This document shows, in pieces, positions 3,001-59,779 of a stretch of 64,000 bases of DNA. The number at the start of each line of letters is the position of its first letter. Position 1 is the first letter of the stretch. The DNA is taken from positions 1 to 64,000 of IMG/VR virus record IMGVR_UViG_3300020186_000021; one strand, given 5' to 3'. Position numbers and translations under genes: made by a program. Source of the stretch: a virus. Under the pieces are notes generated by a model that saw only the letters and a list, made by a program, of their open reading frames with translations, was not told where the DNA came from and did no database searches.

Positions 3001-4420
3001 CAAATGCTTCCGCACTAGGAACTCCAGGCTCTTCTATTTCTAAATCAAGTTCATGTAAACCAAAAGCCTCTTGGCTTATAATACCAGATGGAAGAACGTA
3101 AGCGGTTCCAGGAACTATTGTTGGAGTTCCGAAAGCTTCAGCACTAGCAATGTTGCCAGCATTATGTATTTTTAGATTTAGTTTGTGAGAACCAAAAGCT
3201 TCTAGTGTTGTAATAGATGTAGGAGAAATTCTTTGGTTTAGTTTGTGAGAACCAAAGGCTTCAACAGAAGCAATATTACCAACAAGATGTATTTTTTGAT
3301 TTAGCTTATGAGTTCCAAATGTTTCGGCCGATAGAATTGGTGGGCCAGTAGTATAGATAACCAAATGTAATTTTGGTATACCAAAAACTTCTTGTGATGT
3401 TATGGCTATAGGTTTAATTACGTGATTAAGTTTGTGTGTCCCGAAAGCTTCTGCGCTTACTATCGCTCCAACATTATGAATTTTTTGGTTGAGTTGATGA
3501 GTGCCGAAAGCTTGAGTAGAAGATATATTTCCCACCGTATTAATATTTTGGTTTATTTTATGTGAACCAAATGCTTCAGCAGAAGATATTCCTGTTGGTT
3601 GTATGTTTTGTGTCGGTGGGACACCAGCAAAAGTATATAATATTTCATTAGCAGGATTAATAAGTCCAGACCAAGGGTCGGAATATAATTCTCTAACTTC
3701 TGAACTTTGTAATGCTCTATTATATAAACGAACTTCAGATAAAATTTGATCTGCTTTATTAGCTTGAGAAGGTCCTCTTTCACCAAATAGCCAATCGGCA
3801 GCAGATAGATTTAAGGTAGCAGCCGTTCCAGATAAAGTTGATACTGCAACGTCAATACCATTAATGTAAATTTTTATATCTGAAGTTAAGGTAGCTCCAG
3901 GTGGCACAACTATAACCACATGAGACATGTAGTTTTGCGATATGGTACTCGCCGCCGTTCCCCAAATATGTCCAGCCGAACCGAAATCTATTTGTATATT
4001 ATCGCTAGAAGTTTGTATTAATAAATTTGTTCCGCTAGTAGTCCCAGCATTATATTGAACAATATCTTTAAGAGTTGCTGAATTTGATTTAATCCAGAAT
4101 GATATAGTTAATTGGTTTGCTCCAGTTGGATAAGCAGGAAGTCCAGCCGGAGTCGTAAATGATACAAATTGTTTTATGCTTGGGAAATTAAGACCAACAG
4201 CATTAAGAGGGCCAGGAGTAGTTGAATAAGTTATAGAAGTATTACTTATTGTGCCGTGATTACCATAACCTGAATAGTCTTTTAATGCTCCTGTACCACC
4301 AGTAGCAGTATCTACAGAACACGGCCAATAACCCACGAGGCCTTTGCTCAAATAGTGGTTTCCGTCCACTATTGGCTGCATTGGTTGGGCTATTAATTTA
4401 CTACGTCGGAAATTATACAT
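1..4420 (-). CDS. LamG-like head + EAFG tandem-repeat fibre/adhesin (partial)
   Basis: Open frame of 1473 codons starting at ATG 4420 and still open at the left edge, so the C-terminus is missing. Residues about 25-245 look like a LamG/concanavalin-type beta-sandwich: GLVGYWP with DYSGYGNHGT near the start, TISFWIKS in the middle and EVRLYNRALQSSEVRELY at the end. From about residue 270 on, the protein is about 58 tandem repeats of mostly 20 residues with the core S-x-EAFG-x-H-x-LN. Such sandwich heads bind glycans in other proteins, and EAFG-type repeats occur, as I recall, in phage tail proteins. I infer a virion fibre or adhesin. It lies downstream of gp21 and two unknown genes, and the coding direction matches the late block. 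The binding target is unknown. Confidence 0.85.
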   Translation of the reverse strand, partial: MYNFRRSKLIAQPMQPIVDGNHYLSKGLVGYWPCSVDTATGGTGALKDYSGYGNHGTISNTSITYSTTPGPLNAVGLNFPSIKQFVSFTTPAGLPAYPTGANQLTISFWIKSNSATLKDIVQYNAGTTSGTNLLIQTSSDNIQIDFGSAGHIWGTAASTISQNYMSHVVIVVPPGATLTSDIKIYINGIDVAVSTLSGTAATLNLSAADWLFGERGPSQANKADQILSEVRLYNRALQSSEVRELYSDPWSGLINPANEILYTFAGVPPTQNIQPTGISSAEAFGSHKINQNINTVGNISSTQAFGTHQLNQKIHNVGAIVSAEAFGTHKLNHVIKPIAITSQEVFGIPKLHLVIYTTGPPILSAETFGTHKLNQKIHLVGNIASVEAFGSHKLNQRISPTSITTLEAFGSHKLNLKIHNAGNIASAEAFGTPTIVPGTAYVLPSGIISQEAFGLHELDLEIEEPGVPSAEAFGLHQINQKIKPSSIDSLEAFGSHKVNLNIHVIGITSDEAFGTHIIEVGDVIISTSSINSLEAFGSHKVNLNIVPSSIDSLEGVGLPHIKHHIKPASIDSAETFGTHQLNLYIVPSSINSNEAFGSHTLTTGNVNILPSSIDSLEVFGVHNIVHKIKPSSIDSEEAFGLHQLNLTIFPLGILSQEYVNEAPGVEYEIEPPSINSAEDFGFPTITSIVSIQVTSINSAETFGLHKVNQKIHAQSITSQEAFGLHKFSYIIYPDHVNSAEAFGSPIILSVVYVQPSSIDSLEAFGSHSLHLRIFPQAINTSEAFGSHSLSAVIYPSSINSEEAFGTHQLNLYVVPSSIDSTETFGSHTVTPGTAYVLPSGIVSQEAFGLHELDLEIEEPGVPSAEAFGTHQINQKIKPSSVDSDEAFGTTMLVHEIEPSSIDSEEAFGTPTIVSGNINIYPSSISSLESFGTHKVNQKIHAESITSQETFGNLKINFVIFAQDINTQETVNEPTLHLKIFINEIFSSEAFGSHVIQPGVVYIQPSSITSLEAFGSHKVNHLINITSIDSEEAFGTHLLILYVVPSSITSEEAFGTPTLTSIAYIQPSSIDSEEYIGTHSVVQVIQPNAIDTEEFVNDVNVVQVIQPLSINSQEMFGGLDDIEQNIYPPSINSAESVGFPIVQPGAVYIQPTSIDSEEAFGIAQLSISIIVNAITTEEVFGYHIVHQNIHTTSIFEDEYGTPQVNLNIHVLGIASLEAFGSHQLNYIIYPIGVTSDEAFGTTMLVHEIEPSSINSNEAFGTPTLTSNAYINPSSITSLEAFGTHQVNLNVHVLGIASLEEFGTHQLNLTIFPVSITSEEAFGSHQLNLYIVPSSIDSEEYIGSHSLVQVIQPSSITSLEAFGTHQLNLTIFTQAIGSDEAFGLHQLNHVINITSIDSEEAFGTHQLNLTIFPVQIDSEEYIGAHSLVQIIQPTSIDSEEAFGTHHLKHIIKPVSINSQEAFGTHTIVSTIHVLS
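30..3600 (-). repeat. ~58-copy 60-bp coding tandem repeat array
   Basis: Reading down the window, a core resembling ccaaa(a/t)gcttct recurs about every 60 bases from position 39 to 3567; I count about 58 cores. Most spacings are 60 bp. Others are 57, 63, 66 or 69 bp, always multiples of three, so the frame is kept. On the minus strand the core reads EAFG followed by a His and LN. Individual copies differ in the outer positions, but some multi-copy segments are almost identical far apart, which suggests intragenic duplication. Confidence 0.9.
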
Positions 4421-4450
4421 AACGACTCTTCACACTCCTAAAGGGTTTTA

Positions 4451-4933
4451 TTAAGTCGTCGTATATGTTATACCAGTAAAAGTCTTTATTAAATTTCCTT
4501 CAGTTGCATTGAAAGCTAAGTTAGTTCTATTCTCAATAACAAATCCCCATTTTCTAGGAAGTATGCCACCAAAGAAAGAAGCAACAGAACCTATAGTTGC
4601 TTTATAGGTTAAAGCACCAGCAGTTGGAGTTGTTATGATAAAAGGTCCACGCAAATTTGTTGGTACTCTTAATGTAACAGCAGCATTAGTACCTAAAGAG
4701 TTATCGGTATAGTTTGTTCCATCTTCTGAACCATAGAACCAAACGTTGATAGCTTTATCTGAGGCCGGAGTGCCCGTAACCAAAGGTATAGCAAGATATA
4801 GTATAGCATCAATATATTTGTTTGTGCCGTTATCTACAGCATCGCAAGATCTTGCTGAAGCAGTAGCTAAAGAAGCAAGAGTACAAGTTATACTTGCTGA
4901 AGCTGAATATGTAATGTTTAATGTTGAAGCCAT
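4451..4933 (-). CDS. Small unknown virion-type protein (160 aa)
   Basis: 160-residue acidic, Ser/Thr/Ala-rich protein starting MASTLN at a clear ATG. The sequence is mostly predicted beta (many alternating hydrophobics, SASASITCTLASL near the start, GPFIITTPTAG in the middle) with no membrane segment or catalytic motif. It ends 30 bases before the start of the repeat fibre and follows the 191-residue gene after 10 bases, so it is probably co-expressed with both. Composition and place suggest a small structural or decoration protein. I do not recognise the family. Confidence 0.75.
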   Translation of the reverse strand: MASTLNITYSASASITCTLASLATASARSCDAVDNGTNKYIDAILYLAIPLVTGTPASDKAINVWFYGSEDGTNYTDNSLGTNAAVTLRVPTNLRGPFIITTPTAGALTYKATIGSVASFFGGILPRKWGFVIENRTNLAFNATEGNLIKTFTGITYTTT

Positions 4934-6382: not shown

Positions 6383-8491
6383 TTAAAATTCGTTACCATC
6401 ATCAAAATTAGTCATTTTAACCCCATCTTCTCCCGGAGCGGGAGCCGGATCAGGGTAAACGTCTTTTTCAGCTACAATGTCTTTATCCACAGTTTTCTGT
6501 TCATCCTCAGTCTGTTTTAGTACGTTCTTTCTAATCCACTTAACTGAGAAGTATTTTTGTGTGTATGGATCTATCAATTGAATAAGCTCAAGTCTGTTTC
6601 TAAGAATTTCAGAGTCTTTCAATTCAGTAAAGTGATTATCGTTAGCCCAATCAAAAGTTACTTGCTCTTTTATATTCTCCCATTCATCTCGGTTTACAAT
6701 ACCCTTTATAGTTAGTTGCTTTTCTAATAGTTCAATGAATAGGTGTGAGAATCTAATTCTTTGTCTATAGATGAATTTAGTAAACTTCAATTCATCACGA
6801 GTAATTTCAGCAGCACGTCCTAATTGGAAACCATTTTCTGGATCTAATCTTGATACTGGAACATTAAGTGCTTTATATAATTTCTTCTGAAAGTATTCAA
6901 CGTCTGCCATCTCACCAAGATTTTCACCACCTGGAAGTGTATCAATAGAAGTGCCCTGACTGTTCATCACAAAGATTCCAGCCGATAGAGCAAAGTTGTG
7001 ATAATCGTGATATCTGTGGTCTTTATCAATTGTTAAGGTTCCGACATCCATTCTTTCAGAAAGTATTTCTATTGAAACGACTTTATGGTTATGGAGTTTC
7101 TTTTCTTCATTCATCGCTTGCATTTTAGCCAAGCCAGGAGACCATTTTTCTAAGTATTCTGCTTTACTTAATATTTGTTTATCTTTCTCTCTCGTATAGA
7201 AAGGCATTAACGAATCTTGTGGTTTCAGATCTCTTGCTTCTATTTTAGTGCCGTCTCGCAAAATAAATTTGTGATCTGGTGTTGCTATAACTTCTTCGCC
7301 GTTGTCGAGAGTTATTTTAAGCACATCAGTATTTTTGCGTGTAACGCCAGCCCAAGATATCAGGCCAGGAACTATTTCTCCTTCGGGTGAAACAGAGTAT
7401 GTCCAGTTTTGTTTGCCTTGATCATATTCTAATATTAAATCACTTAAAGGAACTTGACGGCCATCTAGTAAATCTATCTGCGTATTCAATGAAAGGCATC
7501 CCTCTCTCCTCGGCAACCAAAAGTCTTCAAGCATAGAAAGTGTTCGTCTATCGTCTTTGACTTCTCCAGTTTCGATATTGTAGACCATCTTGTTACGATA
7601 TCTTTGCATGATATCTCTAAGATATGCATCAGCTTTTGATTTAGGAAGATTACCAACATCAACATAGAAAATTCTTCTTTCTGGAGCACGAGCAATACGA
7701 TAGATAACCATCGCATCTTCCATCATTTTTAGTTGATTCATTCCTTTTAATGCTTTATGTAGATTAGAAAGAATGGTAGAAGAAAATTTATCTACAATAC
7801 CAGAATGAACAAATAGAATTGAATCAGTAGAAATTTTAATACCTTCTACGGTAGTAGATGCGCCAGTGTATGTGGTATTACCAGAACCACCACGAAGAAG
7901 TCCTCTTTGGTTGAACACGTAATATTCATCGGCAACTTTTAATAGCTCAACACCCTGTTCTGAAACATCTCTTTCTATTTCTCTAACTTTACGAATTTGT
8001 CTTGGGTCAATATATCGAAGTTCTAAGATCCCATTTTTCTTTTTTTGATCGTCTAGTATAACGTGAAAAAACAGTCTACCGTCTATATACCATTTTCTGA
8101 ATAGGTCGTATGAGTTTTGATTCCAATTTAATAGAGTAAGAATATTATCAAACTCTTCATAGATTGCTTCTTTAACTTCTTTCTTTTCTTTGATATTGCT
8201 GAGATTAATTTCTACGGCATCTCTTTGTCCATTAACAACAATTGCTTCATTAACAATGTCGTCTATAGCACTATCTACTTCAGGTAGAAGTGCCATTTCT
8301 CTATAGCGTGTGATTAATTCAAATTCGTTTTTAGAAGAGCCTTCAAGGTCAATGAAGGCTCCGTAGGCACCAACACCTTCAACGGTTACTGCGCCATCTT
8401 CATTAGTAGGCGGTACAAAAGACTTAGCATCTTCTTTAGCTTTTTCTAGTTCAGTCTTTTTTAATGTATAACCGAATAATTTAAAATCCAT
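6383..8491 (-). CDS. 20: Portal protein, T4 gp20-like, interrupted by an intein
   Basis: 702-residue reading frame. Residues 1-331 and 511-702 join to a 523-residue portal, very near T4 gp20 (524). The portal dodecamer forms the DNA entry vertex, starts prohead assembly, and docks terminase and then the neck. Recognisable pieces are YREMALLPEVDSAIDDIVNE, RALFFHV-like strands near 140, YRIARAPERRIFYVDVGNLP near 262, FWLPRREG ending at 331 and, after the insert, TLPGGENLGEM and LYKALNVPVSRL. The insert at residues 332-510 is a mini-intein, described separately. The start ATG 8491 has GGAGAGCAA directly upstream. Excision is needed for an intact portal, because the insert splits a very conserved segment. 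Confidence 0.95.
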   Translation of the reverse strand: MDFKLFGYTLKKTELEKAKEDAKSFVPPTNEDGAVTVEGVGAYGAFIDLEGSSKNEFELITRYREMALLPEVDSAIDDIVNEAIVVNGQRDAVEINLSNIKEKKEVKEAIYEEFDNILTLLNWNQNSYDLFRKWYIDGRLFFHVILDDQKKKNGILELRYIDPRQIRKVREIERDVSEQGVELLKVADEYYVFNQRGLLRGGSGNTTYTGASTTVEGIKISTDSILFVHSGIVDKFSSTILSNLHKALKGMNQLKMMEDAMVIYRIARAPERRIFYVDVGNLPKSKADAYLRDIMQRYRNKMVYNIETGEVKDDRRTLSMLEDFWLPRREGCLSLNTQIDLLDGRQVPLSDLILEYDQGKQNWTYSVSPEGEIVPGLISWAGVTRKNTDVLKITLDNGEEVIATPDHKFILRDGTKIEARDLKPQDSLMPFYTREKDKQILSKAEYLEKWSPGLAKMQAMNEEKKLHNHKVVSIEILSERMDVGTLTIDKDHRYHDYHNFALSAGIFVMNSQGTSIDTLPGGENLGEMADVEYFQKKLYKALNVPVSRLDPENGFQLGRAAEITRDELKFTKFIYRQRIRFSHLFIELLEKQLTIKGIVNRDEWENIKEQVTFDWANDNHFTELKDSEILRNRLELIQLIDPYTQKYFSVKWIRKNVLKQTEDEQKTVDKDIVAEKDVYPDPAPAPGEDGVKMTNFDDGNEF
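6962..7498 (-). other. Mini-intein inside portal gp20 (179 aa)
   Basis: Residues 332-510 of the portal frame. The N-terminal splice block starts with Cys332 (CLSLNTQIDLLDG), block B is ATPDHKFIL with the Thr-x-x-His pattern (His407), and block F/G is HNFALSAGIFVMN ending at Asn510, followed by Ser511 as the +1 extein residue. The host sequence reads REG before and SQGTSIDTLPGG after, so removing 179 residues restores a continuous portal of normal length. There is no room for a LAGLIDADG or HNH homing endonuclease. The usual penultimate His is Met509 here, which may slow Asn cyclisation. Codon use resembles the flanking gene. Confidence 0.9.
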
Positions 8492-59485: not shown

Positions 59486-59779
59486 TTAAGATGTCTTAAC
59501 CTGTTGATATAACTCTTTAAGTTCTTCAAGCTCTTGATCGATTAAACTAAGCTCATATTCTAAATGTCGCTTAGCCTCTTGTTTTCTTGCAAACTCTTTA
59601 TTAAGGAATTCTCGGAGTGTAGAAAAATCACTAATAGGGTCTGAAATTTTTTTACCAGATTTTTTTGGAATGGGTTTTAAAGTTTCCGCTAGGGTCTGAA
59701 ATTTTTTTACCAGATTTTTTGGAATGGGTTTTAAAGTTTCCGCTTTTGGAATGGGTTTTAAAGTTTCCGCTGTCGTCAT
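59486..59779 (-). CDS. ETLKPIPK-repeat coiled-coil protein (97 aa)
   Basis: 97 residues. AETLKPIPK occurs three times in the first 40 residues (positions about 4, 13 and 31), separated by Lys/Phe-rich spacers; the rest is a charged coil (EFARKQEAKRHLEYELSLID, QELEELKELYQQ). The DNA copies are nearly identical (ggaatgggttttaaagtttc on the plus strand), so the array is young. Repeat number may vary between strains. Function unknown. Confidence 0.66.
   Translation of the reverse strand: MTTAETLKPIPKAETLKPIPKNLVKKFQTLAETLKPIPKKSGKKISDPISDFSTLREFLNKEFARKQEAKRHLEYELSLIDQELEELKELYQQVKTS

Follow-up and report, generated by a model that had tools for sequence, protein, structure and literature searches.

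A predicted class 1 mini-intein in a T4-like portal gene and its relatives in the phage portal clip

The 64,000-nucleotide stretch of viral DNA analyzed here (the window; positions 1 to 64,000 of IMG/VR virus record IMGVR_UViG_3300020186_000021) contains a T4-like portal gene (6383-8491, minus strand) whose 702-aa product raises two questions: what is the in-frame segment that divides its portal homology, and does the methionine near the end of this segment, at a position where inteins usually carry histidine, set this copy apart? The ORF is a single frame, unbroken across the insert, with a head protease gene (Peptidase_S77) nearby. Portal_T4 (PF07230, Pfam) matches it at 2.1e-162 in two stretches flanking the insert, T4 gp20 at 5.3e-101, also in two stretches (phmmer, whole ORF), and the portal family phrog_213 (PHROG) at 1.2e-190; gp20 and Portal_T4 homology on either side of the insert places the product among the T4-like portals. 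The N-extein (7499-8491, minus strand, 331 aa) ends with LPRREG at T4 gp20 residue 341, and the C-extein (6383-6961, minus strand, 192 aa) begins with SQGTSIDTLPGG. Removal of the 179-residue insert leaves 523 of the 702 residues, near the 524 of T4 gp20, as the initial annotation had calculated.

The insert (6962-7498, minus strand; portal residues 332-510, Cys1 to Asn179 in intein numbering) begins with Cys332, contains an ATPDHKF block, ends with HNFALSAGIFVMN and is followed by Ser511. It had been annotated as a mini-intein in a gp20 homologue, to be checked against HINT-type profiles, and several lines of evidence agree with this. First, the Pfam model Intein_splicing (PF14890) matches the insert at 5e-18 with 65.8 bits, over the cut-off of 35.8, and the NCBIfam model intein_Nterm (TIGR01445) matches at 3.8e-9, also above cut-off; PHROG gave no match to the insert at E up to 1. 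Second, the AlphaFold model of the insert, built from a 36-row alignment, has a mean pLDDT of 89.2, with 139 of the 179 residues at 90 or above, and is that of an intein fold, its top matches being Npu DnaE (4kl5, E 1.6e-10) in Foldseek and NrdJ-1 (8ubs, Z 20.7, rmsd 1.9 over 141) in VIA-align. Third, T4 gp20 and four intein-free relatives do not contain the segment, which rules out ordinary portal sequence. An intron is likewise ruled out, as the frame is open through the insert and the insert is predicted to fold as an intein.

The N-terminal splicing block (7196-7498, minus strand; intein residues 1-101) contains, according to our alignments, Cys1 and the block B TxxH residues T73 and H76, while the C-terminal splicing block (6962-7084, minus strand; residues 139-179) contains T154 (F:4), an extra histidine H164, H167 (F:13), M178 (G:6) and N179; block names are those given in the accessible part of PMC4031507, placed on the window intein by our own alignment. 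The penultimate (G:6) codon (6965-6967, minus strand; portal residue 509) encodes Met in place of the usual His, as originally described, and the next residue after the final Asn, Ser+1 (6959-6961, minus strand), opens the C-extein. With a HINT splicing fold, a Cys1 nucleophile, T73 and H76 in block B and N179 followed by Ser+1, the insert is, as judged from sequence and model, a class 1 mini-intein hosted by a T4-like portal gene; the penultimate His that it lacks, Met178 standing in its place, is common in class 1 and not obligatory. A class 3 intein is ruled out, since Cys1 is present and F:4 is, in our alignment, Thr154 and not a nucleophilic Cys. The class 1 mini-inteins Npu DnaE (4kl5), Ssp DnaB (1mi8) and Mtu RecA (3ifj) have Cys1, TxxH, a block F His and a C-terminal Asn, as does the window intein, and share its HINT fold across the splicing domain; however, the window intein is 20-26% identical to them, occupies another host protein and differs in having Thr at F:4, an extra His before F:13 and Met at G:6. 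By itself, the window copy is one further mini-intein of a known class.

In the phmmer alignment to T4 gp20, ORF residue 331 (T4 residue 341) is the last one matched before the insert and residue 514 (T4 residue 345) the first one after it, and alignment of the exteins to T4 gp20 places the insertion point between T4 residues 341 and 342. According to the portion of PMC4493910 available to us, the clip domain of T4 gp20 comprises residues 279-358 and is the attachment site of gp17 and gp13, and R338 and K342 of its inner loop face the DNA channel, where a change to Ala stops packaging. An unspliced 179-residue domain at this loop, present twelve times in the portal, should block packaging. Most likely, the insert excises itself after translation through a Cys1 thioester, transfer to Ser+1, cyclization of Asn179 and an acyl shift, which would yield a normal 523-residue portal.

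The absence of a homing endonuclease, noted at the outset, was confirmed within the limits of the Pfam search: the insert was without a match to any endonuclease family, HNH and LAGLIDADG included, up to E 1, so that the window copy has no endonuclease domain of a homing intein and holds a remnant only. This putative remnant of a deleted endonuclease region (7097-7186, minus strand; intein residues 105-134) has low pLDDT and aligns to the central region of all five large relatives tried, none of 1000 shuffles being as good in any of the five comparisons. HNH_3 was found in the portal inteins of L010 (1e-7, above cut-off) and L011 (9e-4, below cut-off). A strict HNH motif is present in 22 of 68 unique portal inteins; 26 of the 68 are no longer than 200 aa, and 10 of those exceeding 260 aa are without the strict motif. 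The nearest relative found, L005, has a 237-aa intein that retains the HNH motif and lacks a counterpart of window residues 105-134; as the two inteins retain different parts, they seem to have been shrunk by different deletions. The ancestor was probably larger, a homing intein that carried an HNH endonuclease, from which an internal deletion would have produced the mini-intein of the window.

A search with the intein only yielded 27 IMG/VR loci, and an alignment-based search yielded 385 viral relatives, of which the best 80, nearest to the query, were used; traits shared by this set may therefore be over-stated, and these inteins may have non-portal homes beyond the best 80 of 385. In these, 112 rows from 102 ORFs, many of them duplicates, contain both an N and a C block. 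The non-redundant set holds 72 inteins in 64 ORFs, one of them, L095, truncated where its contig ends, and yields 68 unique complete sequences; L095 and 10 incomplete intein matches were left out of the counts. All 64 non-redundant intein-bearing records contain PF07230 over its cut-off (50/50 and 14/14), and Cys1, TxxH, the F:13 His and the C-terminal Asn are each present in 68/68 unique portal inteins. Four intein-free portals, 45-48% identical to that of the window, occur among 8 loci, and cyanophage portals are about 52-55% identical in their matched parts; none of these qualifies as a near relative of the phage without the intein. Among the best 80 of 127 cellular loci, the nearest relatives are bacterial and archaeal inteins of GyrB and RtcB, with the host confirmed by Pfam for 4; for the others, flanking motifs are what we take to indicate GyrB or RtcB. 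The truncated L105 and L143 were dropped from the cellular counts. The RtcB intein model NF052663 matches the window intein at 1.7e-33, far below its whole-protein cut-off. Intein trees rest on about 130-150 columns and have many open forks; the portal inteins form one clade (100/99) when the last 20 residues are omitted and two long-branch rows are removed. Labelled 'other' in the 137-row tree, L119 (2615-5632) encodes a divergent T4-like portal (Pfam) with an HNH intein on a contig binned as Woesearchaeota and keeps the penultimate His; both it and L111 stand outside the two groups in the counts of 68 portal and 73 cellular inteins.

The view that Met makes this copy special was not borne out. 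Penultimate Met occurs in all 18 rows at the window's insertion site (site 341 in T4 numbering; 16 unique sequences), and in the 68 unique portal inteins the position is taken by Lys (30), Met (18), Cys (8), Gln (5), Tyr (3), Phe (2), Asn (1) or His (1). When two portal inteins from GTDB contigs are added, His is found in 2 of 70 unique portal inteins, leaving 68 without it, as against 73 of 73 unique GyrB/RtcB inteins. In 67 of the 70, three traits occur together: F:4 is Thr, Cys or Ser, another His precedes that of F:13 by three residues, and the penultimate His is missing; a 9-residue linker is present in 67/70 unique portal inteins. In two exceptions, one of the two inteins of L100 and that of L119, F:4 is Asp, the extra His is absent and the penultimate His is kept, and the L097 portal intein has Thr at F:4 and neither the extra nor the penultimate His. 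The window intein, with T154, H164, H167 and M178, is of the common portal type. In contrast, among the cellular inteins that could be parsed (72 of 73), F:4 is Asp in 62 and Cys in 10; their linker is 3 residues long and lacks the extra His, and each of them has the penultimate His. The change from His to another residue is reconstructed once on the 137-row tree and twice with the last 20 residues omitted and the two long-branch rows removed. Met as a phage-wide trait was ruled out: by reading, other inteins of the same virus population end in THN, THN, VHN, SHN and TGQ.

From these alignments we propose that His167, together with His164, substitutes for the missing penultimate His; Asn179 cyclization would then lean on block F His167, perhaps aided by His164, whose role is a correlation that a single event may underlie and against which the L097 intein, with neither His, counts. 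The accessible part of PMC5050341 describes class 1 inteins of mycobacteriophages, including six portal (PORT) inteins in cluster C1, in which the penultimate His is poorly conserved, with Gly, Lys or Ser instead; it also reports that a block F His can substitute for the penultimate one, that phage inteins without this His include a splicing one with Gly there, and that splicing of a phage intein became slower once the His had been introduced. The mycobacteriophage inteins are like that of the window in their portal hosts and weak penultimate His, a likeness drawn by description. The window intein, used as a query against the phage collection at E 0.01, matched 16 records, none of them from a Mycobacterium phage and none annotated as portal (4 are without annotation). 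It is also conceivable, and offered here as a tentative reading of the clade, that the C-terminal active site was rebuilt, F:4 changing from Asp/Cys to Thr and a linker six residues longer supplying a new conserved His, three residues ahead of F:13, which took over the role of the penultimate His; that the penultimate position could then drift to Met, Lys, Cys, Gln, Tyr, Phe or Asn; and that one lineage spread to about six clip positions, up to three at once.

Loss of the endonuclease and of the penultimate His would also be expected of a splicing-dead relic, in which the insert is no longer spliced and either the long portal is used or the locus is defective. We consider this highly improbable, as Cys1, TxxH, the F:13 His and the final Asn are retained in 68 of 68 unique relatives, the insert occupies a loop of the DNA channel and the portal frame is intact. 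Moreover, dN/dS between the window and L005 is low in both splicing blocks (0.14 in the N block and 0.07 in the C block, against 0.29 for all aligned intein codons; one pair, the intein middle not being comparable since different parts were kept), and the intein sequence is identical in four records, namely that of the window and three other IMG/VR records with 0 nucleotide differences, 3300020057_000027 among them. The latter is 99.0-99.96% identical to the window in five matches over 3 kb, shorter matches being lower, and this near-identity is why the two are taken as one virus population. The 'fixed relic' of the initial annotation is thus apt for the endonuclease, which is gone, but not for the splicing domain, which appears to be under selection.

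The same annotation offered a conditional switch on head assembly, for which this analysis gave no evidence. Slow or signal-dependent splicing (redox, metal, temperature) would in that case time portal assembly or packaging, for which a seat in the clip, to which gp17 and gp13 dock (PMC4493910, in the portion available), would be suitable; conditional splicing is known for other inteins, as described in the accessible parts of PMC6195587 and PMC7360933. However, the alignments contain no sensor feature, sporadic occupancy speaks against a needed regulator, and a non-His penultimate residue can speed splicing, as in the RDF intein (PMC5050341, accessible part). A switch is accordingly rated as improbable, only slightly less so than a dead relic.

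The preferred reading, a self-splicing intein that descends from homing elements, is also consistent with the distribution of its relatives over the clip. Insertion points, as placed by alignment to T4 gp20, are at T4 residues 316 (9 rows), 319 (2), 328 (10), 338/339 (8), 341 (18) and 353/354 (24). Inteins group by site: a tree of 71 rows (63 different) has 10 site changes, whereas shuffles give 40.7 and none of 200 is as low; near-copies inflate this grouping, so that it indicates clustering and not a number of events. A single portal gene, L009 (1-3423), contains three family inteins (417, 157 and 149 aa) at T4 sites 328, 341 and 353, separated by exteins of only 13 and 12 residues, and five more non-redundant portals have two complete family inteins with internal exteins of 11-25 residues. 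In the portal of L010 a second, different-looking intein of 147 aa (4163-4603) ends with VVHN before Cys and lies upstream of the family intein. Portal matches are interrupted further upstream, presumably by more inserts, in L062, L067, L038, L039 and L080; in L062 and L067 the break is at about position 200 of the PF07230 profile, and L038 and L080 have additional N-block matches.

At least 120 portals match the motif D[FY]W[LF]P[RS][RS][DE]G at the DNA level. Among the 120 matches listed, a non-random sample, none of the 119 readable past site 341 has an intein there, and a family intein elsewhere in the portal was found in 2 of 120; occupancy of site 341 is low in this motif-based sample. 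The residue after the site in the portals of this sample without an intein there is Gly in 113/119 and Ser in 3/119, whereas in the intein rows at site 341 it is Ser in 18/18. Eighteen stretches matched a pattern written for occupied sites. The haloarchaeal MCM inteins, according to the available part of PMC10643990, occupy four close sites in one gene, have LAGLIDADG endonucleases and include one whose +1 residue was converted to Ser upon invasion. The portal family is like them in using several close sites of one essential gene, and differs in its HNH endonucleases and phage portal host, as opposed to a cellular helicase.

Fourfold-degenerate sites suggest that the intein itself has moved. 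Between the window and L005, 11/53 such sites differ in the intein core against 75/131 in the exteins (p 7.6e-6), and against 33/60 in the 100 codons on each side (p 2.3e-4); fewer differences in the intein than in the exteins suggest, for this one pair, transfer between phage lineages after their portals had diverged. Codon constraint could likewise reduce synonymous change in the intein. If so, the intein may have been inherited vertically with the portal, its low synonymous divergence reflecting codon or structural constraint; that the transfer signal comes from this single pair is in favor of such inheritance. We regard it as unlikely, given the contrast with the immediately flanking codons, where the amino acids adjoining the site are equally conserved, and the variable size and site of the intein across the family.

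Taken jointly, we find it very probable that the insert can splice and belongs, its endonuclease having been deleted, to a family of homing inteins of the portal clip, with the splicing route, persistence and movement proposed here. The intein would persist because its seat on DNA-contacting residues makes imprecise loss harmful, and it probably moved among phage lineages within the homing cycle of its family. The family is a natural one that has lost the penultimate His, well known for its assisting role, on one or two branches, with many replacements, and it offers candidate compensating changes that can be tested individually. The DNA-contact loops of phage portals appear as a gathering place of homing inteins, some portals having two or three, and it would be prudent, in annotation and in marker surveys with gp20, to allow for some portal genes that are longer by about 150-500 codons per insert. 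A literature search of titles and abstract openings, partial in coverage, retrieved no T4-like portal inteins; the accessible parts of PMC10448857, PMC7468147, PMC4360716 and PMC3322345 make no mention of an intein in a portal gene, and that of PMC7468147 describes one in a minor head protein. The literature searched thus gave no sign of the T4-like portal intein family, of its sites or of the block F/G changes that its members share, which is no proof of their being unreported.

The same virus population (L202, L203 and L204; record G001) has further inteins in DNA polymerase B and ThyX and, by reading, two in a class II ribonucleotide reductase; an intein in a DnaB-type helicase is indicated by weak sub-cut-off matches and reading. 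Two of these, that of the helicase and the second of the reductase, are each divided between two ORFs and resemble split inteins. The split inteins gp41-1 and NrdJ-1 come from environmental T4-like phages, and they have a parallel in the split-looking helicase and reductase inteins of this population, NrdJ-1 being also the top structural match of the window intein; unlike them, the window intein is contiguous and lies in a structural gene. At the end of the helicase gene, on the opposite strand, there is an ORF (L203:1939-2496, minus strand) that presumably resembles a GIY-YIG homing endonuclease. Elsewhere in the window, a small ORF (59486-59779, minus strand) contains the peptide AETLKPIPK in three copies.
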